This document shows positions 37,411 to 53,071 of a stretch of 64,000 nucleotides of DNA, in pieces. The stretch covers positions 1,178,001 to 1,242,000 of the forward strand of contig CAJGZL010000001.1 of NCBI GenBank assembly GCA_904846145.1, in the 5' to 3' direction. Source of the stretch: Psychrobacter immobilis. Its GTDB lineage: Bacteria; Pseudomonadota; Gammaproteobacteria; Pseudomonadales; Moraxellaceae. Below the pieces are notes generated by a model. The model was not told the DNA's origin and did no database searches. It worked only from the letters and a program-made list of their open reading frames with translations. Position numbers and translations under genes: made by a program. Every line of letters begins with the position of its first letter. Position 1 is the first letter of the stretch.

Positions 37411-37501
37411 GGTGACGTGGGTGAGTGGCTGAAACCGCACGCCTGGAAAGTGTGTATGCGTTAATAGCGTATCGAGAGTTCGAATCTCTCCGTCACCGCC
37501 A
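37411..37501 (+). tRNA. tRNA-Ser (anticodon GGA)
   Basis: A 91-nt class II tRNA including encoded CCA. Acceptor stem GGTGACG pairs with CGTCACC, discriminator G; anticodon loop CTGGAAA gives GGA; there is a long variable arm (GTATGCGTTAATAGCGTATC) and the T arm GAGAG-TTCGAAT-CTCTC. Its 3' end is duplicated 15.5 kb downstream and is the attachment site of the island. Confidence 0.96.
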
Positions 37502-37509
37502 ATCTTATA
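37493..37509 (+). repeat. attL core (17-bp direct repeat at tRNA-Ser 3' end)
   Basis: TCACCGCCAATCTTATA, spanning the last nine bases of the tRNA and eight beyond, repeated exactly at 52969-52985. The four to five bases before it also agree apart from one mismatch. Confidence 0.78.
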
Positions 37510-37608
37510 AAATCTTAGTTTTCCCACCTTGACCCAATTCCACTCATATACCAATTAAACCCTGACCCCTGCCGTCAATCCCGTAGACTTAAACTTGGGA
37601 GATTTTAG

Positions 37609-38192
37609 TTACGCAGCCTGACGATAATAATCAAACCACACCTGTCTTGGCGTTTTATAGCCCAAACCCTTTTGAATCCTCGTTTGGTTGTAGTACAGCT
37701 CAATATAGCCAATGATATCGCTGATGGCTTCGAACCTTGTTTTATAGTCTTCGTGATACACCAACTCATTCTTTAATACGCCCCAGAAACTTTCTATCGG
37801 AGCGTTGTCGAAACAATTGCCTTTGCCACTCATAGATCCTGTAAACTGATGCTGTTTAATGATCTTGTGGTAGGCATGGCTACAGTACTGACTGCCTCTG
37901 TCAGAATGAACGATTAGCCCTTTAGTAGGTCGTTTATTCTTAATCGCTATGTTGAGTGCACGGCATACTAAATCTGCGGTCATACGCTTGTTAATAGCGT
38001 AACCGACAAGCTCTTTGGTGTATAAGTCTTTAACACCTGCTAAGTATAGCCAACCCTCATCTGTCCAAATATAAGTGATGTCACTGACCCAAGCCTCATT
38101 AGGGCGATTGGCATTAAATTTCTGTTCTAGACGGTTTGGATAGATAAGCTTGTTATGGTTTGAGTTGGTGGTGACTTTAAAGCGTTGGTAAT
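37609..38192 (-). pseudogene. IS-A transposase OrfB, C-terminal part (interrupted)
   Basis: Integrase-core part of OrfB. It reads through 'RPNEAWVSDITYIWTDEGWL' (first catalytic Asp), 'HSDRGSQYCS' (second) and 'CFDNAPIESFWGVLKNEL' (Glu). All DDE residues are intact, but the reading frame enters IS-B at 38193, so the 5' half is separated. A start codon within the remaining frame lies at about 37983, leaving a truncated protein. Confidence 0.85.
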
Positions 38193-38259
38193 CCCCCCAA
38201 TAAATAAGAACACTTACAAATAGAGATTAACTGCTAAAATACACCAGCAGGAGAATCCT

Positions 38260-38526
38260 ATGAAAAAGACACGCTTTAGCGACAACCAAATCGTCAACAT
38301 CCTAAAACAAGCCGAACAAGGCGTCCCTATTACCGAGCTCTGCCGTGAGCATAACATCAGCCAAAGCACCTTCTACAACTGGCGATCTAAATATGGTGGT
38401 ATGGACGCCACACTTATCAGCCGTCTTAAAGAGCTTGAAGTTGAAAATGCCCGCTTAAAGAAGATGTACGCTGATGAATGTCTTAAATCCGACATCCTAC
38501 AGGATGCTATGTCAAAAAAGTGGTAG
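38260..38526 (+). CDS. IS-B OrfA, transposase helix-turn-helix subunit
   Basis: 88 aa. It has the helix-turn-helix '[20 protein letters not shown]' and a leucine-zipper-like '[17 protein letters not shown]', standard for OrfA of the IS407 group. AGGAG precedes the ATG. The frame ends just after AAAAAAG (38514-38520), the slippery sequence for -1 frameshifting into orfB. Confidence 0.92.
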
Positions 38527-39347
38527 CGCCCCAAAGGCGCAAAGCGTTGGTTTGTCACTACATTGAAGATCGTGGTATTGGTATCCGCAGGGCTTGTAGC
38601 ATCTTTAACATCAGCGTCACCTGTTATTATCACAAGTCGGTGGTAACAGATGAGAACCAGCAAATAGCGGACTTACTTATCAAACTGACTGATGAGAACA
38701 AGAACTGGGGCTTTGGCTTGTGCTTTTTAACCTTGCGTAATGTGCTAGGACTGCCGTACAACCATAAGCGGGTATATCGCATCTACTGCGAGCTTGAACT
38801 CAACCTTAGAATCAAGCCTAAGCGTCGCATTAAACGTGCTAAACCAATACCATTAGCAGTACCTGATAGGATTAACCAAAGCTGGAGCATGGACTTTATG
38901 CACGACAGCTTAACTGATGGCCGCGGCTTTAGACTGTTCAATGTCATTGATGATTACAACCGTGAGGCACTCACCGTTGAAGTCGACTTCTCGCTACCGG
39001 CCGGGAGGGTCATACGCAGTCTTAATCAGCTTATTGAGTACCGAGGCAAACCTGTGCAGATAAGATGCGATAACGGCCCTGAATACATCAGCAATGCGCT
39101 CAAAGACTGGGCTGAACAGCAAGGTATCATCTTAAGCTATATTGAACCTGGCAATCCACAGCAAAATGCGTATGTAGAGCGCTTTAACAGAACCATGAGA
39201 TATGATTGGTTAAATCAGGAGCTGTTTGATAATCTAGAGCAGGTACGCGCACAAGCAGAAAACTGGTTATACCATTATAATCATAAGCGCCCAAACATGG
39301 GCAATGGCGGTTTTACACCGATACAGAAACTCAATCAGGCAGCTTAA
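38520..39347 (+). CDS. IS-B OrfB, DDE transposase domain
   Basis: 275 codons open in the -1 frame relative to orfA. Catalytic residues are '[10 protein letters not shown]', '[11 protein letters not shown]' and 'NAYVERFNR' (DDE). It is normally made as an OrfAB fusion through the A6G site. No ribosome binding site of its own. Confidence 0.92.
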
Positions 39348-39380
39348 TTCTATTTATTAGGTGTCTTAAGTTTGGGAGGG

Positions 39381-39681
39381 TTACCCGTTTATGGCGACGG
39401 CATTTAATGCCGCACTCTTCTTTAATGCGTCTAACCATATATTTACTTATGGCATATCCTTGCCTTGTAAGGTAAGCATGCAATCGCTCATAGCCATAGC
39501 GCTGCTTAGTCTCATCATGAGCCACGCGAACTAGCAACTCACACTGATTGCGATGAATCTGCTGATTACTGACACCACGATTGATCCAGTTGTAATAGCT
39601 TGATGGCTTAACATCTAATACGTGACACATGCAGGTGATGCTAAATATTTTCTGGTTATCCTTGATAAAGACGTACTTCAT
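39381..39681 (-). pseudogene. IS-A transposase OrfB, N-terminal part (interrupted)
   Basis: Begins MKYVFIKDNQKIFSI, overlapping the orfA stop as TGATG, and runs to 'ECGIKCRRHKR', where IS-B starts. The natural continuation (QRFKVTTN) is found at 38192 reading leftwards. Confidence 0.85.
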
Positions 39682-39977
39682 CAACTGTGCTTCGCGAAGT
39701 ACGCCGTGGCCTTTTTTAGAATGTCTCGCTCTTCTTGAGCAACTTTGAGATCACGTTTAAGACGTTTATTCTCTTCTAGTATAGTCATAAGCTCAGGATC
39801 ATATTCTTTAGTACCGATTAGCTTGCCTTTATTAGCTTTGTTTTGCCAGTTAGATAAGGTCTGCATAGCGATGCCAAGCTGCTTTGCCGTTACTGAAACA
39901 TTGCCATCATTATCTGCTATCTTTTTAACGGCTTCAGCTTTGAATGCTGCACTATAGGTTCTGATTTTCTTAGTCAT
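39681..39977 (-). CDS. IS-A OrfA
   Basis: 98 aa: 'RTYSAAFKAEAVKKIADND', the helix-turn-helix 'VTAKQLGIAMQTLSNWQNKA' and a coiled-coil C-terminus 'LEENKRLKRDLKVAQEERDI'. It contains CTAAAAAAG, the frameshift signal near its 3' end. Intact. Confidence 0.9.
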   Translation of the reverse strand: MTKKIRTYSAAFKAEAVKKIADNDGNVSVTAKQLGIAMQTLSNWQNKANKGKLIGTKEYDPELMTILEENKRLKRDLKVAQEERDILKKATAYFAKHS

Positions 39978-40048
39978 GATAAACTCCTCATTGAGTCGTT
40001 AGTTTACCAAGTTTGGTTCTACAGTTTTTTCAGCATAGCTCAATATTC

Positions 40049-40309
40049 ATGGAACAGTTAAATGCGAACACACAACAAAACGTATCAACAGCTAGCGCTT
40101 TACAGATACCTCGCATGATACCGCTCAAGCAAGTAATGCATTATACAGCGCTTAGTAGTACTACGATTTATGAGATGGTCAATAAAAAATCTGATCGTTA
40201 CGATCCAACATTCCCTGTTCAAGTGAAATTATCAAGGGGACGTGTAGCATGGGTTGAGAGTGAGATTGCAGAATGGTTAGAATTCAAAATAGCTGCGAGA
40301 ACTTATTAA
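40049..40309 (+). CDS. AlpA-family regulatory protein
   Basis: 86 aa. 'MIPLKQVMHYTALSSTTIYE', 'DPTFPVQVKLSRGRVAWVES' and 'EIAEWLEFKI' form the AlpA/MerR-like winged helix found beside integrases of P4-type islands and satellite phages, where it controls integrase expression and excision. The IS-A end lies 25 bp before the ATG, so its native promoter has been cut away. No clear ribosome binding site remains. The start at 40049 excludes a TTG-initiated extension that would begin inside the IS. Confidence 0.85.
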   Translation: MEQLNANTQQNVSTASALQIPRMIPLKQVMHYTALSSTTIYEMVNKKSDRYDPTFPVQVKLSRGRVAWVESEIAEWLEFKIAARTY

Positions 40310-40321
40310 GCAGTGATATGA

Positions 40322-40348
40322 AAATAAGCCACTCGAAGTGGCTTATTT
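40322..40348. terminator. Bidirectional terminator between alpA-like gene and yjiH-like gene
   Basis: Perfect 12-bp stem AAATAAGCCACT with AGTGGCTTATTT around a CGA loop. The convergent genes on both sides end within 30 bp of it. Confidence 0.85.
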
Positions 40349-40374
40349 ATTAAATAATTGAGAGTATGAAATTT

Positions 40375-41694
40375 TTAGAACAATATAAAAGCAATTGGAG
40401 TAACTATTATTAAGCTCAGTAATGTCCTTTCAAACCATATAATAACGAGGTCTCTAACTTTAATAGGTATATCTGTAGATAAGATACTTGGCACACTAGC
40501 AGAAAAGAAAATAATAGACGATACGCAAACAACTGCAATCACAAATTTGGTAATTATGTCTGCTTCAACGACCAACAATGGGGGCAAAAACATTTCAGTA
40601 ATACCAAGAGCAGCTGCTTTTGCGGCTAGCATTGGATCAGGTAGCTGCAATAGATAAGTAAATGGATAGAAAACATACGCTAGGATATCAAACAACAATG
40701 TATATTCTGCTAACATAAGAGCGACAATGCCAATAGATAAAATGGTTGGCAGAATGCTCATCGTCATCAACAATCCATCTTTTGTATTTACCAATATATT
40801 TTTAAATATATTGTCAGCTTTGCCAGCTGCTTGCATACCTTCCTTAAAGGCATGGCTTACTCTAGACCCACTATATTCATGCTCATTTTCTGAATGAATA
40901 GGTGTACCGTCAATATACTCTTCAGGCATGTTACGCAAAGGGTAGATACGTACTGTTATAGCGGTGACTAAGAAAGTAACAAAAAGCGTCGTCCAAAAAT
41001 ACAGGTTCCAGCTTTCCATTAAATCAAGCGTTTTAGCAACGACAATCATAAAAGCTACAGTCACAGTGGAAAAACCGGTTGCTACAATAGTAGCTTGACG
41101 TTTGGTGAATTTCTTTTCACGATATTCACGATTTGTAATTAACAAACCAACAGCAAAACTGGCTACAAAAGATGCTAAAGCATTAACTGCAGAGCGACCT
41201 GGTGTATTCCAAATAGGCTTCATAATGGGTTTAGCAATAATGCCCATAAACTCAAGCAATCCGTAGCCTGTAAGTAGCCCTAAAAATGCACCACCTAAAG
41301 GAACCATTACTCCTACAGGGATTACCAAATAATTAAATACATAAGGGGCAATGTGAGGGTTAAGGAACCACTGTGGTCCCTGTTCAAAATAAACCAAAAG
41401 TGCAAAGAAAGTACCTAGTATCTTTAGCATGGTAAACACGATATGAAAGGTACTTTTATTCCATGATTTATTAATAAATGGATAAACACTACCAGCAACA
41501 ATGAGTAATAGGATGAAAAAAGTTATCCCTGTTGGAAAGTTACTGCTTAACCAAGTAGCCATATGATCCAAAGGTATCGAAGAGACCTCACCAATCTTAA
41601 TAGGTACAAAGAATATAAAAATGCCTAGTAACGAATACAAGAAAAATCGAAACACTGATAGTGAAGATACCAATTTAGATCGATTGCCTTCCAT
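40375..41694 (-). CDS. YjiH family membrane protein (nucleoside-recognition/Gate domain)
   Basis: 439 aa with about 10-11 transmembrane helices. 'WNTPGRSAVNALASFVASFA' and 'KAAALGITEMFLPPLL' are Gate/nucleoside recognition domain features, and the general layout matches YjiH. The function is unknown; it is related to nucleoside transporters and spore maturation proteins. It lies 95 bp downstream of the flavin reductase on the same strand, possibly cotranscribed. Island cargo. Confidence 0.8.
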   Translation of the reverse strand: MEGNRSKLVSSLSVFRFFLYSLLGIFIFFVPIKIGEVSSIPLDHMATWLSSNFPTGITFFILLLIVAGSVYPFINKSWNKSTFHIVFTMLKILGTFFALLVYFEQGPQWFLNPHIAPYVFNYLVIPVGVMVPLGGAFLGLLTGYGLLEFMGIIAKPIMKPIWNTPGRSAVNALASFVASFAVGLLITNREYREKKFTKRQATIVATGFSTVTVAFMIVVAKTLDLMESWNLYFWTTLFVTFLVTAITVRIYPLRNMPEEYIDGTPIHSENEHEYSGSRVSHAFKEGMQAAGKADNIFKNILVNTKDGLLMTMSILPTILSIGIVALMLAEYTLLFDILAYVFYPFTYLLQLPDPMLAAKAAALGITEMFLPPLLVVEADIITKFVIAVVCVSSIIFFSASVPSILSTDIPIKVRDLVIIWFERTLLSLIIVTPIAFILF

Positions 41695-41789
41695 GACATA
41701 TCTCTCCTAGATAAGTTGAAATAAATAAATCAAACACTAGCTCTATAACTTAATAGTAACTAGTGTCTAATTTCGTCAACACATACACT

Positions 41790-42464
41790 CTAGTCTGTTC
41801 GTCCTTCTAAACCTGCTAACTCTTTGTCTGAAGCAACAGGAGCTTTCATCTCGAATATTTTTTCTACGACAGTGTAATCATAGTATCCGAGACGTGCTAA
41901 AGGTTTGATGGCAGCAATATCTATTTTGCCATTATCCATAATGAACTCATCTTTGATGTGAACATGCGCAACACGACCAATGATAATGTCAAATGTTGAA
42001 ACTGGATTTCCTGTTGGAATACGAATGGATTGAACATACTCAATCTCAAAGTTAATTGGTGACTCGGCAACTCTAGGTGCAGGTGCTTCGATACAATCAG
42101 ATTTTGTGACACCGGCAAATTCAAACTCATCTTCACCGTACGGTAATGCTTTAGCAGATTTATTAACGGCTTCACGCAAATCATATGTGGCCATGTTCCA
42201 CACAAACCATCCAGTTTCTTCAAGATTACGCACAGTATCTTTTCGGCTTTGACCGTCATCTAAAACAGATTGATTAGCAACAAACATAACCATCGGTGGA
42301 TCCCAAGTTAAGTTTTGATACTGACTATAAGGGGCAAGGTTAACTTTACCGTCTTTCGATATAGTCGAAATCCAACCAATTGGTCGAGGCACGGCGCTAC
42401 TCTTGAACGGGTCGAATGGTAAGCCATGACTACGGATACCATCGTTTTTAGGAGAATAATGCAT
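41790..42464 (-). CDS. Flavin reductase-like FMN-binding split-barrel protein
   Basis: 224 aa. 'AVPRPIGWISTISKDGKVNL', 'APYSQYQNLTWDPPMVMF' and 'KDTVRNLEETGWFVWNMAT' define the flavin_reduct domain of the DIM6/NTAB type. Such proteins reduce flavins or bind FMN for oxygenases; no partner oxygenase is nearby. AAGGAT precedes the ATG. Confidence 0.85.
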   Translation of the reverse strand: MHYSPKNDGIRSHGLPFDPFKSSAVPRPIGWISTISKDGKVNLAPYSQYQNLTWDPPMVMFVANQSVLDDGQSRKDTVRNLEETGWFVWNMATYDLREAVNKSAKALPYGEDEFEFAGVTKSDCIEAPAPRVAESPINFEIEYVQSIRIPTGNPVSTFDIIIGRVAHVHIKDEFIMDNGKIDIAAIKPLARLGYYDYTVVEKIFEMKAPVASDKELAGLEGRTD

Positions 42465-42619
42465 AAAATATCCTTATAAATGCGTTACTAGAAACCAGAG
42501 CTAAAGAATGTATTATTTGTATATACAATTCATCCTTATTTAATAAAATAGCTTATTTTTTTTAAGAGAGCAAGTGAAAATTACTTATTTTTTGAATTTT
42601 GAGAAACAAAAATTACTTA

Positions 42620-42651
42620 AAAAAATAGCCCCGTTTTTCAATGAGGCTATT
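42620..42651 (-). terminator. Terminator downstream of the ygjP-like gene
   Basis: On the minus strand AATAGCC pairs with GGCTATT around a 14-nt loop, followed by a U-run. Confidence 0.65.
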
Positions 42652-42746
42652 CAAAATTCTAATTTCAGTTTTGATATATCTAACATTTGTTCAAGATAAC
42701 TGTTCACCTATTTTTCTTTGAAAAGGATAAGATTAATAACTGCTTA

Positions 42747-42767
42747 AAAAACCTGCTTTTACAAGAG
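42747..42767 (+). repeat. 21-bp direct repeat flanking the hsdR module, left copy
   Basis: Contains TGCTTTTACAAGAG. It matches 48707-48727 at 20 of 21 positions. Each copy lies about 33-36 bp past the 3' end of a minus-strand gene (ygjP-like and hsdS). Confidence 0.65.
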
Positions 42768-42799
42768 TGCAAGGCTTATTGGCACCGAATATCCAACCC

Positions 42800-43618
42800 T
42801 CACACATTCAAATACAGCTCTGCCATACCATCAAGCTTATCCTTCATCTCTTTCCAATTCGGCATGACTTGCGTTAATAGGCGCCAAAAGTTCTCGCTAT
42901 GATTATGCTCAGCGATATGACACAGCTCATGCAATATCACGTAATCAATGCACTCCTTTGGGGCTTTTATTAAATGAGGATTTAATATTAAATTGCCTTT
43001 AATTGAGCAGCTCCCCCATTGCTTTTTCATAGTCATTAACTTTATTGAAGGACTACTATCAACCCATGAGGCCTTATGCAGCAAGGCTTCAAGCCTCTCT
43101 CTAGAGACCGACGTAAATTTATCTTTATACCATTTATCAATCAAGCTTTTCACGAGAACTGCTTGTTTTTCAGAGTCTAATTCAGAATCAATTTGAGACA
43201 ATTCCACATTCAGCTTACCGCGACTAAGCTTCACAGTACTGTTGATCCCATCGTTAGCTTCTGCATCGGTTATCACTTTTAACACATAACGACGACCCAG
43301 ATAAAACTGGGTTTCACCGCTAACATATCGTTTGGGTAATACATGTTTTTTTTGCTTAGTAAAGTCTTGCAGACTTTGCCATATCCAACGAGCACGTTTC
43401 ATTATAGCGTCATGGATTATTTCTTCGCTGGCATCGACAGGTGCGGTGGCAACCACACGCTGATCAGGATGTACCTTGATAACCACTTTTCTAGGCTTGC
43501 TTGATTTGCTCTTTTCATCAATAAGCGTATCATTTTTATACTTATTTTTTGCGTCTTTACGCACCACTTCATAATGGATCTTATCTTCGCCATAATAAAA
43601 GTCGCTAGTCTCAGTCAT
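42800..43618 (-). CDS. YgjP-like zinc metallopeptidase (DUF45) linked to type I restriction
   Basis: 272 aa. The C-half is the YgjP-type domain with the zinc site 'HELCHIAEHNHSENFW' (His230, Glu231, His234) preceded by 'KKQWGSCSIKGNLILNPHL'. Genes of this type often accompany hsdR and may process or regulate the restriction complex; the substrate is unknown. It starts 6 bp after the hsdR stop, so it is translationally coupled. A decayed copy of its 3' end lies outside the island near 53.1 kb. Confidence 0.85.
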   Translation of the reverse strand: MTETSDFYYGEDKIHYEVVRKDAKNKYKNDTLIDEKSKSSKPRKVVIKVHPDQRVVATAPVDASEEIIHDAIMKRARWIWQSLQDFTKQKKHVLPKRYVSGETQFYLGRRYVLKVITDAEANDGINSTVKLSRGKLNVELSQIDSELDSEKQAVLVKSLIDKWYKDKFTSVSRERLEALLHKASWVDSSPSIKLMTMKKQWGSCSIKGNLILNPHLIKAPKECIDYVILHELCHIAEHNHSENFWRLLTQVMPNWKEMKDKLDGMAELYLNV

Positions 43619-43624
43619 TGCCTA

Positions 43625-46600
43625 CTATCCTCTTGCTGCTCTTGGGCTATTTGTCTCTCTCGACAGCCCAAGTCGGGTGATCTTTAGCACGGCTTCAATG
43701 AGCTGCTGCGCTTTATCGATACCTAAGTCAGCAAACAACATTGGCAATAATCGCCTATTAATCGCATTTTCGATTTCACTGGCATTGATGGAATATTCCG
43801 CCACATTCGTTTTAACTACTTCATCAATCTCAAAGGCGTAAGCGACCAGCTTGTCATTATCTAGCTCTTTATCCACTAAAAAGTCCGCGTCAAATAAGTG
43901 CTTAAATAAACCAAAATAAGCCTGAGCATGTTTGTTTAACTTACCACTATCATCGACAAAATCATTCGGCACATCAGCAACATCATCGCGGTCTTTGACG
44001 GCTTGCTCGAAGTCAGCAAACATCATGTACTGCTTTACAGGTGCATCAAACATCGCCTTGGCATCAGCAATCGCTTGCTTAAGTAGTTTAGAGAAGTACT
44101 CTTGCGCATAAGGATCATCAGCCAAATCTTGCTCAATCATCTTAGTGACACGACCTGTGATTTTATCGGTTTGGTTACGGGCTTCATCGTCACTCATCGC
44201 TTCAGGCTTAATGTTTTTTCCTAGGTTATCGACTAGGTAGACGCCTTTCGCTTCTTTAACCTCAAGCCCTGCAATGTGCTTATCGAGTAAGCTGCGAATA
44301 TCTGCTTCATACTCATCGTAGTCGATGGTCTCATCAGCGTCTTCACGCACTTGCTTACGTAGGTTAATAAAGGCTTTTAGATCGGCTTTGTAGCGATCAC
44401 GCTTATTATCAAATGATTTGTCTTCAAAGAAAGATGCTGATTGCAACGCAATTTTCATGGCGTTAGAAAACTCAGTCAAAGCAGCATAAAAGTCGTCACG
44501 TTCCTTTAGCTTGGTATCGACCACTCTGCCATCAATCTCTTGCATCTTTGGCGCAAGCACTTGTCTGAGAGAGGGGCCGTCTTGTTTGTTTTTCACCGAC
44601 GAGAAGATAGCCCACAGCTCGCTATGCAGTCTTGGTAGCTGTTTGTACTCGGTATCCATGGCGTTATATAAACCTTTGAGGTCTTCGATATCAAAGCCAC
44701 CTTGCGTACGTTCGGCTAAGTCTTGGTATTTCTCAATGGTGATATCGAGCTCTTTTAAGATGCCACGATAATCAATCAAATAACCAAAGCGTTTTTTCTC
44801 ATGCAAGCGGTTCACCCGTGCAATCGCCTGAATCAAGTTATGCTGCTTTAAGGGTTTATCGATATACAGTACAGTATTTTTTGGCTCATCAAAGCCCGTT
44901 AATAGCTTATCAACGACGATCATAATGTCAGGACCATCATCCTGACTAAAGGCTTCTATAATGGCTTTGGTGTAGGCTTTTTCATCACCGCCGAAGTCCG
45001 CGGCGACATTATCTTGCCACCAGTTTTGTACGATGTCTTTTGATTCGCCATCGACGGTATCATGCCCCTCACGGGTATCAGGCGGTGACATGGCAACCAC
45101 TGAGGTCACTTTGCCAATCTTATCTAGCGCAAGCTTGTAGCGGATGGCTGAGGCTTTAGAATCACAAGCCAGTTGACCTTTTAGATGCTGCTGTTTAAAG
45201 TTTTGGAAGTGATCAGAGATGTCATGAGCGATCAGCTCAATACGACCTTCAACCTGATAGATTTGACCCTTTTGTGAGAACTTACGCTTGAGATCCATTT
45301 TTTGATCATCGGTAAGCTTTTGGGTGATACGGTCAAACCAAGCATCGATAGCGGCGTCATTGGTATTGAGCTCAGGAACGCGCTCTTCATATAAGAGTGG
45401 GGTGACGGTTTTGTCTTTGACCGCTTGTTGCATGGTGTAGGAGTGAATAATGCTACCGAATTTGTTTTCGGTCTTATCATCTTTTAGCAATGGCGTACCA
45501 GTAAAGGCAATAAAGGCGGCGTTTGGTAGGGCTTGAGCCATACGGATATTGTTCTCACCATTTTGGCTACGGTGACCTTCATCGACCATGACGATGATAT
45601 TTGGGCTGTCGTTATAGCATTCATCATACTTAACGGCTGAGCCAAACTTATTAATAATGGAGAAAATAACGCGCTCATTACCGTGACCGATTTGCTGCGC
45701 GAGACGACGACCAGAGGTTGCCATGGCGTCACGGCTATCGCGTTTGCTGGTTATTACGCCACCTGATTTAAAGGTATTGCTTAGCTGGGTTTCCAAATCG
45801 ACACGATCCGTGACGACAATAATTCGACACTTCGCGAGCTCTTCTAACCAAATGAGCGCCTTGGAGAAAAACACCATAGTGAAAGATTTACCACTGCCTG
45901 TAGTATGCCAAATCACTCCACCCTCACGACTACCCTTCTCATCGAAACTGCTGATACGTTCAATCAGGGCTTTGATACCAAAGACTTGCTGATATCGGGC
46001 AACAATTTTGCCAGCCTTTTTATCAAACAAGGTAAACATGCGCGTCATTTCAAGCAAACGCTCAGGCTGTAATAAGCTAATGATAAGGCGGTCTTGATCG
46101 GTAACGACTAGATCACCGCCATCAATCAATGACTGATATTCATCTTTAATAAAGGCAGGACGATGGGCAAACAGACTCTCAATCTGCTCAGGACTGAGCG
46201 CTTGATTTTTTAGACGGGCAAACTCAGGCTCAGAGATCTCTTCTTCGACCCACTTCGCCCAAAATTTCTCAGGCGTACCGCAAGTGGCATACAGACCGTC
46301 ATTACCATTTACCGCTAGCAGTAACTGGCTATAGGCAAATAGATGCGGGATTTGTTTTTGACCTTGGTTACGGATGTGCTGGGAGACGGCTTGAGTGTTG
46401 GTTGATTGCCACTCTCTACTGGAATCAGGGCGTTTAGCTTCGATCACTGCCAGTGGTAGACCATTCACAAAGCAGACGATATCAGGAATGACGTTGCCTG
46501 TACCCTCGGCATTTTGTACGACAAACTCTTCAGTAACGTGAAAGCTATTATTGTCGATGTTATTCCAATCGATCAAACTGATGGTTTGCGAAGTTTTTTT

Positions 46601-46972
46601 ACCATCGATGAACTCAGTCACGGTCACGCCATAGAGCATAGCGTTATAGAGCTTTTCATTGGCGAGCTGCAAGCCTAAGTTCATGGCGGGATTTAGCTCG
46701 TGCATGATTTTATCAATGGCACTGTCTGATAAATAATGCGGTGTGCCTTCAAACATAAAGGTTTGCTTGGCTAAGAACTCACGCATGATCGGCAATAACA
46801 CTACTTGGTTAGTGGCTTTGTTAGCATTTGCCTGATTAGCTAGCAGCTTGTTGCTACGCATGGCATGGCATTGGCTTGGGGGAATAAATTGATAGCCCAG
46901 CGTAGTGAGCAAGGTTAAGGCAGGGATTTTTGAAGCAAATTCTTCTTGGAAGTTGATGCTGGAGTTGATCAT
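43625..46972 (-). CDS. hsdR: Type I restriction enzyme, R subunit
   Basis: 1115 aa, full length. The N-terminal PD-(D/E)xK nuclease reads 'VIPDIVCFVNGLPLAVIEAK' (Asp164, Glu178, Lys180). The SF2 translocase has Walker A 'HTTGSGKSF' (about 356-364), 'VDEGHRSQ' as the DEAD box (464-467), 'FTGTPLL' and 'LLTGFDEPKNTVLYIDKPL'. It cuts unmodified DNA after ATP-driven translocation when bound to HsdM and HsdS. AGGCAG precedes the ATG. It is separated from hsdS by a 1.8-kb insertion of unrelated genes on the other strand. Confidence 0.95.
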   Translation of the reverse strand: MINSSINFQEEFASKIPALTLLTTLGYQFIPPSQCHAMRSNKLLANQANANKATNQVVLLPIMREFLAKQTFMFEGTPHYLSDSAIDKIMHELNPAMNLGLQLANEKLYNAMLYGVTVTEFIDGKKTSQTISLIDWNNIDNNSFHVTEEFVVQNAEGTGNVIPDIVCFVNGLPLAVIEAKRPDSSREWQSTNTQAVSQHIRNQGQKQIPHLFAYSQLLLAVNGNDGLYATCGTPEKFWAKWVEEEISEPEFARLKNQALSPEQIESLFAHRPAFIKDEYQSLIDGGDLVVTDQDRLIISLLQPERLLEMTRMFTLFDKKAGKIVARYQQVFGIKALIERISSFDEKGSREGGVIWHTTGSGKSFTMVFFSKALIWLEELAKCRIIVVTDRVDLETQLSNTFKSGGVITSKRDSRDAMATSGRRLAQQIGHGNERVIFSIINKFGSAVKYDECYNDSPNIIVMVDEGHRSQNGENNIRMAQALPNAAFIAFTGTPLLKDDKTENKFGSIIHSYTMQQAVKDKTVTPLLYEERVPELNTNDAAIDAWFDRITQKLTDDQKMDLKRKFSQKGQIYQVEGRIELIAHDISDHFQNFKQQHLKGQLACDSKASAIRYKLALDKIGKVTSVVAMSPPDTREGHDTVDGESKDIVQNWWQDNVAADFGGDEKAYTKAIIEAFSQDDGPDIMIVVDKLLTGFDEPKNTVLYIDKPLKQHNLIQAIARVNRLHEKKRFGYLIDYRGILKELDITIEKYQDLAERTQGGFDIEDLKGLYNAMDTEYKQLPRLHSELWAIFSSVKNKQDGPSLRQVLAPKMQEIDGRVVDTKLKERDDFYAALTEFSNAMKIALQSASFFEDKSFDNKRDRYKADLKAFINLRKQVREDADETIDYDEYEADIRSLLDKHIAGLEVKEAKGVYLVDNLGKNIKPEAMSDDEARNQTDKITGRVTKMIEQDLADDPYAQEYFSKLLKQAIADAKAMFDAPVKQYMMFADFEQAVKDRDDVADVPNDFVDDSGKLNKHAQAYFGLFKHLFDADFLVDKELDNDKLVAYAFEIDEVVKTNVAEYSINASEIENAINRRLLPMLFADLGIDKAQQLIEAVLKITRLGLSRETNSPRAARG

Positions 46973-47489
46973 ATCTGCCTACTTTAGACATAGCGTTTGT
47001 TTGGTTGCTTATTTAGTTATATCGATTGTAGCCCAAAACTCCATAAAAAAGGCAAAGAAAAACCGCCAAGGTTGCGCGTTACCCAAAGGGCACTAAGCGT
47101 GGCGGTTATGTTGGGTATAGATTAGTGTTTGTAGGCTGGGTTTTTAACGCAGCAAACCTACCAAAAGCAAAAGTTTAAAAGGATTGGCCTCGATATCTGA
47201 ATGCTTTAAAAGGTGGGGAAATATGCGAGTCATGGGACGGTGTTCTTTAAGACTGCATTCGCGCCTCGTCCCTCGGCAAAAGCTACTTTCGTCTTGTACT
47301 CGGACAGAGCAATGCTCTAATACATCAATTGCAGAAAATGACATAGATAGACACAAAAAGATATATCGAAAATAGTTGCAGCTGATATACTTCTTATATA
47401 TTATTAAGTAATTATATTTATAATATACTAGCATATTAGATTAATCATGCTAATGCCATCATAATCGCGTAAAGAGAAAGGAGATGAAG
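46973..47489. other. Region between hsdR and the unknown cassette, with several hairpins
   Basis: No convincing gene. It contains an inverted repeat with 8-bp arms AACCGCCA/TGGCGGTT (47061-47107), a GTAGGCTGGGTTT..AAACCTACC hairpin (47131-47162) and GGGACG/CGTCCC (47234-47239 with 47067+200, at 47267-47272). A minus-strand frame of 96 codons covers part of it but has no supporting signal. The promoters of hsdR (minus) and of the cassette (plus) must lie here. Confidence 0.45.
47376..47404 (+). promoter_or_regulatory. Possible promoter of the two-gene cassette
   Basis: TTGCAG, 17-bp spacer, TATTAT. It lies about 85 bp before the first ATG of the cassette. A fair sigma-70 match in AT-rich DNA, so only suggestive. 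Confidence 0.35.
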
Positions 47490-47687
47490 ATGGACACTAA
47501 CAATCAAAGGAAACAAAGCTTTATAGAGAAGGCTCTTGGGATAAACAGGCCAGAAGTCAGAGTAAGTAGAAATGGAAAGCTCTTAATTGATAAGCATGGA
47601 AATGTACGCTCTAACTATAACAACCCTGAAGTTAGAGATAGGCTTAAAAATCAAATATCTGCTCAGACTAGATTAAGCAATATCTAA
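47490..47687 (+). CDS. Hypothetical protein, 65 aa (first gene of cassette)
   Basis: I do not recognise this protein. It is basic and polar: 'QSFIEKALGINRPEVRVSRN', then 'GKLLIDKHGNVRSNYNNPEV'. An AAGGAG ends six bases before the ATG at 47490, so that start is chosen over an ATG two codons earlier. The stop is 24 bp before the next gene, so both are likely one transcription unit. The strand is opposite to the hsd genes on both sides. Confidence 0.65.
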   Translation: MDTNNQRKQSFIEKALGINRPEVRVSRNGKLLIDKHGNVRSNYNNPEVRDRLKNQISAQTRLSNI

Positions 47688-47711
47688 CCTTATAATGAGA
47701 ATATCTGAATC

Positions 47712-48545
47712 ATGAATGTACTGACAGTTCTGTTGATTCTTTTACTTGGATATCGGATTAATTCTCATGTAGACGAAAAAACATACAAACTTAAGCGTAG
47801 TGTAGGATGGGAGTCCTACGCAATACTAGCTATTGATGGGGTGATCTCACTATCAATAGCTTTTTTTTGCTTAATTTTCTTATATATTTTAGCTCTATTA
47901 TTAGGTAGTTTAGTAGGGTCGCCTATTCTTAATTTAAGTCTATTTGAAACCCATATATCTAAAGTTTTAGAGGATGAATATATAAAATGCTTATTTATCT
48001 TCATGATATTAGTAGCATCAGTTACAATTAATGAGATACGTTTAAATGTACTAAATGCAGAACCAAATTTAAGTGCATTGAAAAAGCTAGATGGAATGAT
48101 GAGTATTGTAATTACTGCCTTAGAAAATTCTTCATACCTTAAAATATCGCTGAGTTCGGGAAAAGTGTATATAGGTATATTATTAAAAGAGGATTTTAAA
48201 AGCGGACCTGATGAAACATTAATTATACTGCCAATGTTGAGTGGTTACCGTGATAAAGAAAATTTAAATATGCATTTAGATTGTAATTATCTAGATGTGT
48301 ATTTAAGACACGGAATTGTTGAGATACAATCTGAAGGGATTTCTCATCATCCAGAACTAGCTGAAACTGCTTCAATGTTAATTCCTGTAAGCGAGATAGA
48401 ATCAATAGCGTTTTTTGATGTCAATATGCATAAAGATTTTAAGTTTGGAGAAGATGCAGTTAAACGATTTAGAGTTTCACAAACTTTAGAACCTGATTCG
48501 TCTATAGAATTTGATATTAGTAACTATTTAAATAGAGATAGCTAA
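47712..48545 (+). CDS. Membrane protein of unknown function (second gene of cassette)
   Basis: 277 aa. An N-terminal hydrophobic segment (about 1-15) is followed by strong helices at about 36-65 and 93-110. A soluble C-terminal domain follows with a beta-rich stretch 'YLKISLSSGKVYIGILL', 'LIILPMLSGYRDKENLNMHL' and 'SMLIPVSEIESIAFFD'. That stretch looks like a small Sm-like or barrel fold seen in some uncharacterised membrane proteins; I cannot name a family. Codon use is markedly more AT-rich than the flanking hsd genes. The gene sits inside a type I restriction locus and ends in a perfect hairpin. Confidence 0.75.
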   Translation: MNVLTVLLILLLGYRINSHVDEKTYKLKRSVGWESYAILAIDGVISLSIAFFCLIFLYILALLLGSLVGSPILNLSLFETHISKVLEDEYIKCLFIFMILVASVTINEIRLNVLNAEPNLSALKKLDGMMSIVITALENSSYLKISLSSGKVYIGILLKEDFKSGPDETLIILPMLSGYRDKENLNMHLDCNYLDVYLRHGIVEIQSEGISHHPELAETASMLIPVSEIESIAFFDVNMHKDFKFGEDAVKRFRVSQTLEPDSSIEFDISNYLNRDS

Positions 48546-48551
48546 TCGAAT

Positions 48552-48583
48552 CCAGTTGTAGCAATAATCTTTGCTACAACTGG
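48552..48583. terminator. Strong hairpin closing the two-gene cassette
   Basis: Perfect 13-bp stem CCAGTTGTAGCAA with TTGCTACAACTGG around TAATCT. It begins 7 bp after the stop codon. There is no U-run on either strand, so it is a weak intrinsic terminator but a good transcript-end structure. Confidence 0.6.
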
Positions 48584-48706
48584 AAGTAGTGATAAAAATT
48601 TTGTCATCAATAGGTTTGATAGTATGTATGACACTATTTAAATAAATCTCTTGTATAATTCGCTGTTAAATTTTCATATTCAGATGCTCAGCTAATGAGA
48701 ATCACC

Positions 48707-48727
48707 AAAAACGTGCTTTTACAAGAG
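48707..48727 (+). repeat. 21-bp direct repeat flanking the hsdR module, right copy
   Basis: Partner of 42747-42767 (20 of 21). It is also part of an inverted repeat: CTCTTGTA at 48648-48655 mirrors TACAAGAG at 48720-48727. Confidence 0.6.
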
Positions 48728-48762
48728 GTCTAATATAGTTCTATTGTGGTGTGGAAATCACC

Positions 48763-50013
48763 CTACGCCTTAACCTCCCCATCAACCACCACCCTTTTCT
48801 TACCCGTCAACAACACCTGCATCAGCGCCTTTTTCTCTTGCTGTAAATCAGCCAATTGCTGCTCAAGTAAATCAATTTCTTTATCGGCATTGATTAACAC
48901 GGTGGCGATTTTTTGTTGTTCTTTTAAGTTACTGGGAATTGAAACGTCTAAACTTGCTAAGTCTTTTCCATAAACATGAATAATTGTAATGCCTTGACCT
49001 TTTCGAGCGATTTCGAACTTCTTAGTATGAGTAAGAAGATGAGCCATAAATATTGCATCAATTGATTTTTTAGGTCTAAGAATATTGATATCTCCACCAA
49101 GCAAAATATTATCTTCAAGGATTGCTGTAGCATTCGCTAAATCAATTCCTGTAGTTGTTGTTGATGCTGGTATCAACACATCACCTTTTATAGACTTAAT
49201 AGAGTTTGTTTCCGTTGTTCTACTTTTGACTTCGCGAATAACTTCACCGTAATGCGTATATAGCTCACCATATAGCACGCATTTATTACCATTCTCTGTC
49301 AGTTGACCTTTGGATATACCCTTACCGCGTTTGAAAGAATATAAACTTCCTAGTTTGCTATCTTCCCACTCACCCTCAAACCTTTTCCCCGACTCATCAA
49401 GCAAACGCTTTTTACCCGTCAGCAATTGCTGCATCAACGCTTTTTTCTGCTGGGTACTATTATCAATCAAACGCTCAGTCATGCTAATCGCTTTATCCCA
49501 AGTGGATAGGATTTTGGCGATTTTTTGTTGTTCTGGGAGAGGTGGAATTAAAACTGATATTTCTCTAATTTGAGTAGCTGACAGATTAGCCTGCTTAGTT
49601 CCACCAGGCAAAGAATATAGTTTTGATAGAAAAATCTCACTTTTTAAAACATTTAGAACAAAACCTTTAGCGTCGCTGTTTCTTGGTTCGATTTTTAAAA
49701 CGCGTTGATTGAGCAAACAGTCCTGAGTATTTTCAGGAATTTCTACAGCAAAACCATAGTCTCTTTTACCCATTGTTCCAGTCATTGACATAACTAAATC
49801 ACCTGACTGTAGCAAAAACCTTTTATATTCAGTGGCGAAGTCATCAGGTAAATATATTGGGCTCCTATCAAGTTGGAACTGATTTTGATATAAATTACCC
49901 ATTCGTACTAAAGGTATTCCTTTTTTCACAAAGTCATTACTTTTAAACGCATACCCCATGACTGTATCAGCTAAATCTGAGACTAAGCCTTTTTTCCAAC
50001 CATTAGGCACCAT
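48763..50013 (-). CDS. hsdS: Type I restriction enzyme, specificity subunit
   Basis: 416 aa, with two target recognition domains. Each is followed by a conserved helical repeat: 'LPEQQKIAKILSTWDKAISM' with 'KKALMQQLLTGKKRL', and 'LKEQQKIATVLINADKEIDL' with 'KKALMQVLLTGKKRV'. It sets the DNA sequence methylated and restricted by the complex. Its start overlaps the end of hsdM by 11 bp. The near-identical repeat ends are possible sites for domain exchange. Confidence 0.93.
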   Translation of the reverse strand: MVPNGWKKGLVSDLADTVMGYAFKSNDFVKKGIPLVRMGNLYQNQFQLDRSPIYLPDDFATEYKRFLLQSGDLVMSMTGTMGKRDYGFAVEIPENTQDCLLNQRVLKIEPRNSDAKGFVLNVLKSEIFLSKLYSLPGGTKQANLSATQIREISVLIPPLPEQQKIAKILSTWDKAISMTERLIDNSTQQKKALMQQLLTGKKRLLDESGKRFEGEWEDSKLGSLYSFKRGKGISKGQLTENGNKCVLYGELYTHYGEVIREVKSRTTETNSIKSIKGDVLIPASTTTTGIDLANATAILEDNILLGGDINILRPKKSIDAIFMAHLLTHTKKFEIARKGQGITIIHVYGKDLASLDVSIPSNLKEQQKIATVLINADKEIDLLEQQLADLQQEKKALMQVLLTGKKRVVVDGEVKA

Positions 50014-51541
50014 AACCCAACTCCTTTAAATATCCTGACATCTCATCCTCTAACAGATTTAACTCGGCTTTAAGCGCCAAACGCTCAGCACGAACCGCAT
50101 CCAAATCAATATCCGCCTCTTCTTCAAAGGTATCGACATAGCGCGGAATGTTTAGGTTAAAGTCGTTTTCCTTAATCTCATCAAAGCTCGCTAGATACGC
50201 GTATTTATCGACACTTTCCCGCGCTTTATACGTCTCAATGATCCTAGCGATATTATCTTCGGTCAGCTGGTTTTGGTTTTTACCTGATTTAAACTCATTG
50301 CTAGCATCGATGAATAACACCGTGTCATCGGTCTTATTCTTTTTAAACAGCAGAATAGCGGCTGGAATCCCCGTCCCAAAGAACAGCTTTTCTGGTAAGC
50401 CAATCACCGTATCGAGCAGGTTTTCTTCAATAAGTTGCTGACGGATTTTGCCTTCACTAGACGCACGGAACAGCACGCCATGCGGTACGACCACACCCAT
50501 ACGTCCAGTGCTTGGCTTAAGCGTTTCGATCATATGACTGATAAAGGCATAGTCGCCCTTGGTCTTGGGTGGTACACCGCGATGAAAGCGACCATAGGGA
50601 TCGCTACTGGCATCCTCATGACCCCATTTATCCAGTGAAAACGGCGGATTGGCGGTCACCACATCGAACTGTAATAAGTGCTTGCCGTCCTTGTCGAGTA
50701 GCAGCGGATTACGGATGGTATCGCCCCACTTGATACGGTGGTTGTCCTCACCGTGTAGGAACATATTCATCTTGGCCAGTGCCCATGTCGAGCCAATGGC
50801 TTCTTGACCGTATAGCGCATACTTCTTAGAATTTGAGTTTTTGCGTACCATCGCCCCGCATTTAATGAGTAGCGAGCCTGAACCACAGGCTGGATCACAG
50901 ATTTCATCACCTTCGACAGGCTCAAGAATAGTTGCTAGTAAGTTAGATACTTCAGGCGGTGTATAGAACTCACCCGCCGTCGCGCCACTACTTGCCGCAA
51001 AATGCTTGATTAAATACTCGTACGCATTGCCAATCACATCCAAGCTACCGACACGCTCGGCACTTAGATTTAGTATGTCTTTGCCAAAATCTTCTAACAA
51101 GTGGCGTAGTAGCTCATTCTTTTGCTTTTCTTGACCGAGTTTATCAGTGTTAAAACTAATATCTTGAAAGACGTTTTTGAGCTTGGTACCGTTGGCTTCT
51201 TCAATCGCATGTAGCGCCTCGTCAATACGTTGACCATTGCCCGGCTGATGACGCTGCTCATATAAGTCCCAAAAGCTTGCGCCTTCAGGCAATACAAAAC
51301 GCTGCTTGGACATCATGGCATGGATCAGCTCGGGGTTGTTGCCAAACTGCTCGACCAGCTTGTTGTACTCATCTCGATATACATCAGATAGGTACTTTAG
51401 GAACAGCATGGTTAAGATGAAGTCTTTATAGGTATCGGCGCTAATGACCCCACGAAAGGTGTCACAGGCGTTCCATACGGCTTTGTTGATATCGTCTTGA
51501 TTAATCTTATTGGTCATTTTATTAGCGGTGCTGGCGGGCAT
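50003..51541 (-). CDS. hsdM: Type I restriction enzyme, modification (methyltransferase) subunit
   Basis: 512 aa N6-adenine methyltransferase. It has the N-terminal HsdM domain ('DINKAVWNACDTFRGVISAD'), the SAM motif 'CDPACGSGS' (about 215-223), 'GEFYTPPEVSNLL' and the catalytic 'NPPF' (298-301). AGGA lies upstream of the chosen ATG; a Met eight codons later (MTNKINQ) is an alternative. It is first in the hsdM-hsdS unit. Confidence 0.95.
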   Translation of the reverse strand: MPASTANKMTNKINQDDINKAVWNACDTFRGVISADTYKDFILTMLFLKYLSDVYRDEYNKLVEQFGNNPELIHAMMSKQRFVLPEGASFWDLYEQRHQPGNGQRIDEALHAIEEANGTKLKNVFQDISFNTDKLGQEKQKNELLRHLLEDFGKDILNLSAERVGSLDVIGNAYEYLIKHFAASSGATAGEFYTPPEVSNLLATILEPVEGDEICDPACGSGSLLIKCGAMVRKNSNSKKYALYGQEAIGSTWALAKMNMFLHGEDNHRIKWGDTIRNPLLLDKDGKHLLQFDVVTANPPFSLDKWGHEDASSDPYGRFHRGVPPKTKGDYAFISHMIETLKPSTGRMGVVVPHGVLFRASSEGKIRQQLIEENLLDTVIGLPEKLFFGTGIPAAILLFKKNKTDDTVLFIDASNEFKSGKNQNQLTEDNIARIIETYKARESVDKYAYLASFDEIKENDFNLNIPRYVDTFEEEADIDLDAVRAERLALKAELNLLEDEMSGYLKELGYGA

Positions 51542-51765
51542 TTATAGTTCCTAAATACTTTGGAAGGTGTGGATTTGATAGTGAGGTAATGATAGCAGGG
51601 TCTAGGCTGGTTGACGGATATTAGTGGCTAGAAGTTCAACTCTAGTAGATATTTATATAAATTAATTGAATAAACTAAGGGGCCAAAGCACAAAAATACT
51701 TGATAACAATGTGACTATTATGGGTACTGAGAAGATATGTTTAACAGTGTATATGTATAAGTCAT

Positions 51766-52179
51766 TTAATCATGCTTAGGCGGTACGGAATAGGTGCCAA
51801 CAACATGTGCGACCAAGTCACTAGAGCCCTCTGAATATAAAGAAACTTCGCCTACGATAAGCGTGCGACCTACTTTTAGCAAGCTACACTCAGCAATAAT
51901 ACGTGCTTCTGCTGAGGGTTTACGCAAAAAATTAATGGTCAGGCTTGTCGTCACTGTCAACGGTACAATTCCAATCTTGCCAAGTATAGCTACATAGAGT
52001 GCGACATCAGCAATACTCATCAATACAGGACCTGAGACAGTGCCACCAGGACGCAGCTCGTCTATACCGATATCATGTGATAAGGTCGAACCACTATTAC
52101 CTACTGCTTCAACAATACATTTGGTTTGAGGAAACTCTAACGCTAAAAAGGCAGCTATTTCTTCTTTGGTTGCAGACAT
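51766..52179 (-). CDS. PaaI-type hotdog thioesterase
   Basis: 137 aa. 'LRPGGTVSGPVLMSIADVAL', then 'VTTSLTINFLRKPSAEARII' and 'LKVGRTLIVGEVSLYSEGSS' is the PaaI/4HBT hotdog pattern. It probably hydrolyses acyl-CoA. It is the last recognisable gene before attR and unrelated to the hsd genes in function. Confidence 0.82.
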   Translation of the reverse strand: MSATKEEIAAFLALEFPQTKCIVEAVGNSGSTLSHDIGIDELRPGGTVSGPVLMSIADVALYVAILGKIGIVPLTVTTSLTINFLRKPSAEARIIAECSLLKVGRTLIVGEVSLYSEGSSDLVAHVVGTYSVPPKHD

Positions 52180-52500
52180 ACATACTCCTAGAGTCTAATT
52201 ATTCTTATGACCTAACCGACTTTCTCATCAAAGGTTAGTGGTCTGTTACTATCGTCGAACGTAAGGAGTGGACATTTATTTAAATGAGTTAAAAATCTTA
52301 TCTAACTTGTAGGATAGCATTACTGAAAAGCAAGACAAATAGAAAGCTTCATTACCATCCTAACCATTTATCTCAAAACTTCACGACAATCATCGTCCTC
52401 TGATTCTTACCTGCGCTCAGATTTTTCAATCATCTATTTCTATATCTAAAGTCATCTTTGCAAGGCATCGTTCTATCTGATTAACATAAAAGTTGGCAGT

Positions 52501-52749
52501 ATGCTTTATACCAGCATCTATCCCAATACTACTCTAATAATTGATCACTCGCTGACAGCTTGCTGCAAAAAAATTGTCACTGCACTGGTAACAGAATGCT
52601 TCACCATTATAATATTGAGAATAAGTGAAAAAATTATCTTACGAGTATACAATGAGAATCATGCAGACATCTTGGTTAAGGAACCATTGGCGCTGTTTGG
52701 CGTGACTATGACAATGCTAGACGGTTTAAACAATATGAATAAAAAATGA
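52501..52749 (+). CDS. Doubtful hypothetical reading frame, 82 aa
   Basis: An open frame with 'HADILVKEPLALFGVTMTML' in the C-half. No ribosome binding site, no recognised family and a lone position in decayed DNA. It might be the end of a broken gene. Confidence 0.2.
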   Translation: MLYTSIYPNTTLIIDHSLTACCKKIVTALVTECFTIIILRISEKIILRVYNENHADILVKEPLALFGVTMTMLDGLNNMNKK

Positions 52750-52968
52750 GCCTAACTTACTAGAAACAGTTTTTTAGTGATAGTATATGTTTGAAATCAA
52801 ATAATGACTTAGAAATACTTAGTTACATTTCATTATGAGATAAATCCCAATATCCATCTTGCATTCAATGCTTAATAGGTGTTGGTCTAATAGTTGGTCT
52901 ATAAATACAAACATAAATATTAATACCTTAAGTATCAATTACCTATAATAGTAGTTGTGCTTCCTCCT

Positions 52969-52985
52969 TCACCGCCAATCTTATA
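52969..52985 (+). repeat. attR core (17-bp copy of tRNA-Ser 3' end)
   Basis: TCACCGCCAATCTTATA, exact copy of 37493-37509. Only the last few bases of the tRNA are present, so no second tRNA is made. Confidence 0.78.
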
Positions 52986-53071
52986 TACTCTGCTTAATCA
53001 AAACCTCTGTTTTACTATTCTGTTCTACCCCACCATAAAATATATTTTATTTATTTAAATATATCTCTATC

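Follow-up and report, generated by a model that had tools for sequence, protein, structure and literature searches.

What does a pair of genes for a 65-aa and a 277-aa protein do for its host when it lies between the hsdS and hsdR genes of a type I restriction-modification (RM) locus, on the strand opposite to both? The question is raised by a 64,000-nucleotide stretch of the Psychrobacter immobilis genome (hereafter, the window), in which an earlier note, made from the letters alone, had pointed out such a cassette and had suggested an anti-phage role for it, with the larger protein as an effector that acts on the membrane.

A two-gene unit in a type I RM locus

Both open reading frames are present between hsdS and hsdR in the orientation given by the earlier note (Table 1), and the 65-aa and 277-aa genes are real and form a single unit. 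With a GC content of 0.354 for the 65-aa gene, 0.305 for the 277-aa gene and 0.31 for the cassette-specific stretch as a whole, the cassette is more AT-rich than hsdR (0.446) and hsdM (0.464), as the note had it for the hsd genes in general; hsdS, however, is AT-rich as well (0.374). Of two ribosome binding sites described as good, the one of the 65-aa frame deserves the name (AAAGGAG, 6 nt 5' of the ATG at 47490), but the one ahead of 47712 is weak, both being judged by eye. A promoter that had been thought possible does not rise above chance: scanning 4 kb gave 8 promoter-like sites against 12.9 expected by chance, and the site nearest to the cassette (47348–47376) matches at 9 of 12 positions. 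The hairpin that closes the unit is real and slightly longer than the 13 bp first reported, with 14-nt arms (48551–48564 and 48571–48584) that are 100% complementary and a predicted RNA fold of −23.8 kcal/mol (z −6.1; 0 of 200 shuffled sequences are equally good), but it has no T-run, and a scan for intrinsic terminators did not call it.

Table 1. Features of the cassette and its flanks (positions in the window)
Feature	Position	Strand	Basis
Small partner gene, 65 aa	47490..47687	+	ORF list; AF2 model, pLDDT 80; match to partner profile
Membrane gene, 277 aa	47712..48545	+	PHROG 3630, E 2.1e-42; AF2 model, pLDDT 86
Membrane part, codons 2-114	47715..48053	+	AF2 model and hydropathy
Sm/LSm/Hfq-fold domain, predicted cytosolic, codons 122-237	48075..48422	+	VIA-align, Foldseek
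Perfect 14-bp hairpin at 3' end of unit, without T-run	48551..48584	+	Repeat and RNA-fold analysis
Cassette-specific DNA	47330..48770	no strand	Comparison with sister loci; edges rounded
Imperfect palindrome typical of the hsd slot	47050..47112	no strand	Comparison with Psychrobacter genomes
hsdR, slot flank	43625..46972	-	Pfam and PADLOC
hsdS, slot flank	48763..50013	-	Pfam and PADLOC
hsdM	50003..51541	-	Pfam and PADLOC

A variable island of ∼16 kb (37488–52991), located behind a tRNA-Ser gene (37411–37501), contains both the hsd locus and the cassette. A genome of the same species that is without the island (G027) matches the window up to 37508 and again from 53475 onwards, and has 2.5 kb of different DNA in that interval. 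Over 28 bp, the sequence at the tRNA gene's end (37488–37515) is repeated at 52964–52991 (89%), much like the attachment repeats that flank integrated elements, and transposase fragments can be made out by eye at 37609–39684. Two adjacent and similar genes at 35334–36248 and 36300–37250, which by eye resemble DNA/RNA non-specific endonucleases, are probably a tandem duplication.

The hsd slot is an exchange site for small defence cassettes

To characterize the slot, we surveyed 19 loci (18 from the strongest hsdS matches, and that of P. phenylpyruvicus, G038), of which the 12 with both hsdS and hsdR were counted; the remaining seven have no called hsdR within the stretch, and blastn places the gene farther away in six of them. 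The 12 counted loci encode HsdM and HsdR proteins that are 83–97% and 74–92% identical to those of the window, and include one (L074) whose hsdR breaks off after codon 46. The slot is filled in all 12 of these other Psychrobacter loci, by 1.0–4.9 kb of DNA. Similarity to the window at the DNA level stops between about 46956 and 47326 and restarts at ∼48771, which shows that the cargo has been exchanged as a block.

Much of the cargo matches models of defence systems. When all 24 slot ORFs of at least 90 aa were scanned with PADLOC, the pair's own large gene aside, 16 gave a match at E 1e-10 or better, and these are spread over 10 of the 12 slots. They comprise Pycsar (G023, G088), Septu (G018), AbiZ (G043), PDC-S42 (G016), PDC-S02 with PDC-S20 and an Aga-type REase (G019), a further PDC-S20 (G088) and an AAA/OLD-like ATPase (G057), with partial matches to an MBL fold or LmuA model in three genomes (G032, G055 and G069; loci L066, L069 and L076). 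No PADLOC match was obtained in the slot of L070, which holds a BLUF-like gene (by eye), or for the two other slot genes of at least 90 aa in P. phenylpyruvicus. By comparison, none of 10 genes from elsewhere in the window reached 1e-10, nor did any do better than 5.5e-4, these controls being of the housekeeping type rather than matched accessory genes. The slot of P. phenylpyruvicus contains the same pair in the same orientation, with proteins that are 60% and 68% identical to those of the window, and holds further genes on either side of it. The slot of this Psychrobacter type I RM family serves generally for the exchange of small defence cassettes; none of the papers listed on the subject in the open PMC set gives an account of it.

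The slot has a further feature, an imperfect palindrome upstream of hsdR (47050–47112 in the window) that is 63–72 bp long and of the form AACCGCC ... GGCGGTT. Among 105 Psychrobacter genomes, 33 contain it, in 39 copies altogether, at least 34 of which lie within 12 kb of a match to a window-type hsdS (45 hsdS matches were used), and in P. phenylpyruvicus two direct copies (L025, 6928–6991 and 7812–7874) flank a 226-aa cargo gene. Folded as single-stranded DNA, the palindrome has a z of −2.5; it may serve the slot as a recombination or terminator element.

The two genes are inherited together and spread by temperate phages

Searches that start from the window copy alone reach little: with the single protein, a scan of viral sequences found nothing and a scan of genome contigs found P. 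phenylpyruvicus alone, and the cassette DNA had no blastn match in E. coli genomes. The larger protein does match PHROG 3630 over residues 1–247 (E 2.1e-42), a PHROGs family without assigned function, and a scan of IMG/VR with an alignment of eight members produced 220 relatives, the analysis continuing with the 80 best loci. At a threshold of E 0.001, and with weak and broken copies counted, the protein is encoded in 4 of 105 Psychrobacter genomes, 12 of 348 genomes of the family and 13 of 369 of the class. Among complete E. coli genomes, 61 of 5,426 contain a match, which in 51 covers at least 80% of the query, and the protein of locus L111, used as a query, matches in 12 phage records and 31 plasmid records. 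The pair is therefore rare and patchy in occurrence.

The small gene accompanies the large one with great regularity. Setting aside the one IMG/VR locus of the 80 that starts at a contig edge, an ORF of 64–100 aa lies directly upstream of the large gene on the same strand in 79/79 loci, at an intergenic distance of −4 to 18 nt, the two genes overlapping or abutting (−4 to 0) in 31 of the 79. A single profile, in which 31 of these upstream ORFs are included, recovers all 79 at E 1e-3 or better; with all relatives of at least 70% identity left out, 32/32 aligned partners still match, the worst at 2.2e-5. The 65-aa ORF of the window, which was excluded from the profile, matches it at E 1.2e-8 in a scan of 2971 ORFs, and at 1e-8 when relatives are left out of the profile. 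Moreover, the protein distances of the two genes are correlated (Mantel r 0.855 for 32 loci and 0.727 for 22 representatives, with 0 of 2000 permutations as high in each case). Together, the constant upstream partner, the shared profile and the correlated distances identify the pair as one inherited unit. That it is conserved, co-inherited and mobile is, in our judgment, almost certain, and temperate phages spread it.

A small upstream ORF is mostly present also in remoter relatives (IncC plasmids, the Cronobacter phage phiES15, the sister genus and others), and these small ORFs show no significant similarity to the partner profile. In three cases (G083, where the gene contains unknown bases, G100 and a prophage on an Enterobacter plasmid), the large gene is broken and the small one kept; with a large gene of about four times the length of the small one, this pattern is uninformative about a toxin-antitoxin reading. 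In G100, a transposase gene lies directly beside the broken large gene.

Most viral relatives occupy the P2 hotspot

Where, then, do the phage-borne copies lie? In 51 of the 79 IMG/VR loci, gpA is found upstream or gpQ downstream of the pair in the expected orientation, and in 46 both are; counted by 90% clusters, the figures are 22/39 for either and 20/39 for both, with one more locus (L110) in reverse orientation. This placement concerns the viral relatives, the window copy itself sitting in the hsd slot. The cos-proximal gpA–gpQ region of P2-like phages is an established anti-phage hotspot (PMC9122126), and PMC9519451 places 4 of its 21 systems between replication endonuclease and portal genes. 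Scanning all 19 listed cargo ORFs that lie beside the pair in 12 P2-type loci with PADLOC, we obtained matches at the threshold of E 1e-10 for six ORFs in 6/12 loci, among them a bSEFIR and a DUF262-type gene. One E. coli copy of the pair adjoins a gene annotated as SieB family, for which PADLOC gives no match. E. coli strain DETEC-P881 carries the pair in a P2 prophage. We considered whether the SEFIR gene and the pair might be one system and rejected this, as E. coli 503440 has the SEFIR gene at that place without the pair.

Other prophage settings exist. As judged by eye from translations, the pair lies inside head or tail gene clusters in L085, L087 and L156, and in G315, a genome of the same family, it stands antisense between tail genes, a typical moron position. 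Candidates for PDC-S42 occur in the Psychrobacter hsd slot (L083, 4849–5901) and beside the pair at a P2-type hotspot (L148, 7109–7999), so that the two sites share a type of cargo.

Because the pair occupies both the hsd slot, with its defence cargo, and the P2 gpA–gpQ hotspot, we consider phage exclusion its likely function. The survey of homologues that the earlier note had proposed lends independent support to the defence link that it had drawn: sister slots carry defence-type genes, the same pair recurs in the slot of P. phenylpyruvicus, and 51/79 viral relatives are at the P2 hotspot. The same note had held that homologues mainly outside defence islands, or membership of a housekeeping family, would speak against this link. 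Neither was found, though outside copies exist. When the neighborhoods in four of five sister-genus genomes (probably Acinetobacter; all but L033) were read by eye, three chromosomal copies were seen to adjoin acnB and the fourth plsB/recG, neither of which is a defence locus. In two Psychrobacter genomes, broken copies (L026, 9178–10138; L027, 8722–9967) adjoin purL and a HigBA-like toxin-antitoxin pair (by eye).

The copies beside acnB, together with the rare and patchy occurrence, would also fit a lysogenic-conversion or accessory membrane pair, with for instance a stress or envelope function, that travels as passive hotspot cargo and has nothing to do with exclusion. P2 hotspots likewise house partition and toxin genes (PMC9122126), and 13 of the 19 cargo ORFs beside the pair at such hotspots have no strong defence match. 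Against this stands the finding of the pair in two unrelated slots that both carry defence cargo, and we regard a passive accessory role as quite unlikely.

A predicted inner-membrane protein with an Sm-like domain

Scans of the 65-aa and 277-aa proteins against Pfam, NCBIfam and PADLOC returned no credible family, and neither did sequence searches of the PDB with profiles of either protein. We turned to structure prediction, as the earlier note had advised. An AlphaFold2 monomer model of the 277-aa protein built from 39 sequences (pLDDT 86, pTM 0.68) has a membrane part composed of a short hydrophobic helix (residues 2–19), a long helix (33–68) and a further helix (89–114), of which only the second and third exceed a 19-residue hydropathy of 1.6, followed by a mostly-beta domain (122–237) that consists of a helix and a small barrel. 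Using VIA-align, this domain was superimposed on 6aso_E with Z 9.1 (78 of 79 residues aligned, 2.4 Å) and on the Hfq chain 3sb2_C with Z 8.2 (60 of 61 aligned, 1.7 Å); 59 chains reached a Z of at least 8, and the 50 matches listed all belong, going by their titles, to spliceosome, LSm, SmAP or Hfq entries. Values of 7–8 commonly arise by chance with this method, and those obtained here are 8–9. A Foldseek comparison with Sm, LSm, SmAP and Hfq chains gave E 2.6e-4. As modelled, the large protein thus very probably carries an Sm/LSm/Hfq-like fold, and it includes a stretch, KISLSSGKVYIGILL, that we take to be Sm1-like. At the level of sequence, a profile search brought out no kinship with Hfq, hhalign giving a probability of 2.2 of 100 for the family profile against 28 Hfq sequences. 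The sister-genus members (L030–L033) are longer, at 372–381 aa, with a weak match to a second Sm-like domain in 4/4 (i-E 1.6e-4 to 4.1e-4); three of these members adjoin acnB (by eye).

The loop after the first helix (residues 20–32) is positively charged, with a mean of 3.5 K/R against 0.6 D/E, and the loop at 69–88 is slightly negative, which places the Sm-like domain in the cytosol. The large protein is accordingly predicted from the model to be anchored in the inner membrane and to present its Sm/LSm-fold domain to the cytosol. The best conserved parts are the first helix, the loop on the cytosolic side, the beginning of the second helix and the Sm strands, and the least conserved are the periplasmic loop, the third helix and the tail; mean conservation is 0.38 for TM3, compared with 0.61–0.70 for TM1, the cytosolic loop and the strands of the Sm-like domain. 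Residues K151, Y153, G155, R180 and F235 are invariant. The proposal of a membrane-acting effector is compatible with these data and goes beyond them, conservation being concentrated in the Sm-like strands and on the cytosolic side of the membrane region, with TM3 poorly conserved. The small partner is predicted to be a soluble protein: its AlphaFold2 model is a helix–beta hairpin–helix (pLDDT 80) with no convincing match in a fold search (best Z 2.3), and its matches to PHROGs are weak (best 7e-4).

Sm folds often bind RNA, and the domain can be aligned to almost entire Hfq and SmAP chains, so that the large protein might be a membrane-anchored RNA binder, whose Hfq/LSm-like ring would bind phage or host RNA and regulate expression in the lysogen, with any protection being indirect. 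Sm-like folds are found in proteins that do not bind RNA too, however, and the residues of the canonical LSm RNA site are not seen among the invariant columns; the low Hfq profile probability also counts against this possibility, which we judge improbable.

Probable phage exclusion and its possible mechanism

As a working model, our first choice is an abortive system resembling RexAB, and our second a SieA-like block of genome entry. We put forward tentatively, with rather more reserve than conviction, that the cassette came from a prophage and, as a two-gene phage-exclusion module, has settled in a type I RM defence slot, and that it works by a RexA/RexB-like mechanism; the specific mechanism, taken by itself, is similarly doubtful. 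In this scheme, the Sm domains would assemble copies of the large protein into a ring beneath the inner membrane, and the small partner would dock on this ring or gate it. Upon infection, the complex would act at the membrane, on its cytosolic face, most likely as an abortive system in two parts, like RexA/RexB, in which a soluble sensor or regulator is paired with a membrane-damaging membrane effector. It is unlikely, though conceivable, that the membrane-anchored Sm/Hfq-type ring itself senses infection, in the form of foreign RNA, DNA or an injected protein, with the 65-aa partner as a gate and with the membrane or genome entry being disabled as a result.

The second choice is superinfection exclusion, in which the inner-membrane protein and its partner would hinder the injection machinery or the incoming DNA, much as P22 SieA does and without killing the cell. 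The prophage location, which in some phages is antisense to or within late gene clusters (by eye), is consistent with such a block, as are conservation at the cytosolic leaflet together with the Sm domain, and the three hydrophobic segments, SieA having three predicted TM segments (PMC10883804). SieA, however, is a single small protein of 162–164 aa, and is thought to disturb a conduit in periplasm and membrane, whereas the periplasmic loop and TM3 are the least conserved structured parts here. We consider an entry block somewhat unlikely and keep the RexAB-like reading in first place.

Models of known defence systems do not capture the pair: the best PADLOC match of the large protein is at 0.016 and the small protein has none (PADLOC 2.0.0), and over 39 members of the large-protein family there are weak matches to three families, at 0.0023–0.079. 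We found no description of the pair in titles or listed abstracts of the open PMC literature, although it may figure among the 169 systems at the P2 hotspot that PMC9122126 tabulates. If phage exclusion is indeed its function, a family with 220 relatives on viral contigs, present in 51/5,426 complete E. coli genomes, would be an overlooked exclusion system that matches no PADLOC model. The pair would moreover offer a direct test of Sm-fold rings in membrane immunity, and the hsd locus illustrates that small defence cassettes, some of them also prophage-borne, can be swapped in and out of a slot within a type I RM locus.

Comparison with known systems

PHROG 3630, to which the large protein of the window belongs by its match, is a family entry that gives no function, fold or partner gene. 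The likeness to Sm, LSm and Hfq proteins lies in the modelled C-terminal helix and small barrel, on which Hfq, SmAP and LSm chains can be aligned over almost their full length at Z 8–9. Unlike those proteins, the domain here is joined to a membrane part and has a long stretch between its third strand and the last two, and of the 26 weak Pfam families obtained for 39 members, the 25 listed include neither an LSM nor an Hfq model.

MscS channels also combine TM helices with a following beta domain of the Sm-like type, but the pair of the window has no further C-terminal domain and does have a small partner gene. We rejected an MscS-type channel: hhalign assigns a probability of 0.4 of 100 against 26 MscS sequences, and TM3, the candidate for lining a pore, is among the least conserved parts, which disfavours this reading. 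No MscS entry is among the 50 matches listed from the VIA fold search, a result that does not bear on the question.

P22 SieA likewise is encoded by a prophage, resides in the inner membrane and has three predicted TM segments (PMC10883804), but it is a single protein of 162–164 aa, whereas the window encodes a 277-aa protein with an Sm-like domain and a partner. The yardstick for our proposal is RexAB, a two-part abortive system (PMC12894663). RexA/RexB and PycC/PycTM differ from the window proteins, which have no weighty PADLOC match and whose 65-aa partner has no recognised sensor or cyclase domain, but they share with them the arrangement of two adjacent genes, one for a soluble and one for a membrane protein, in a prophage or a defence slot.
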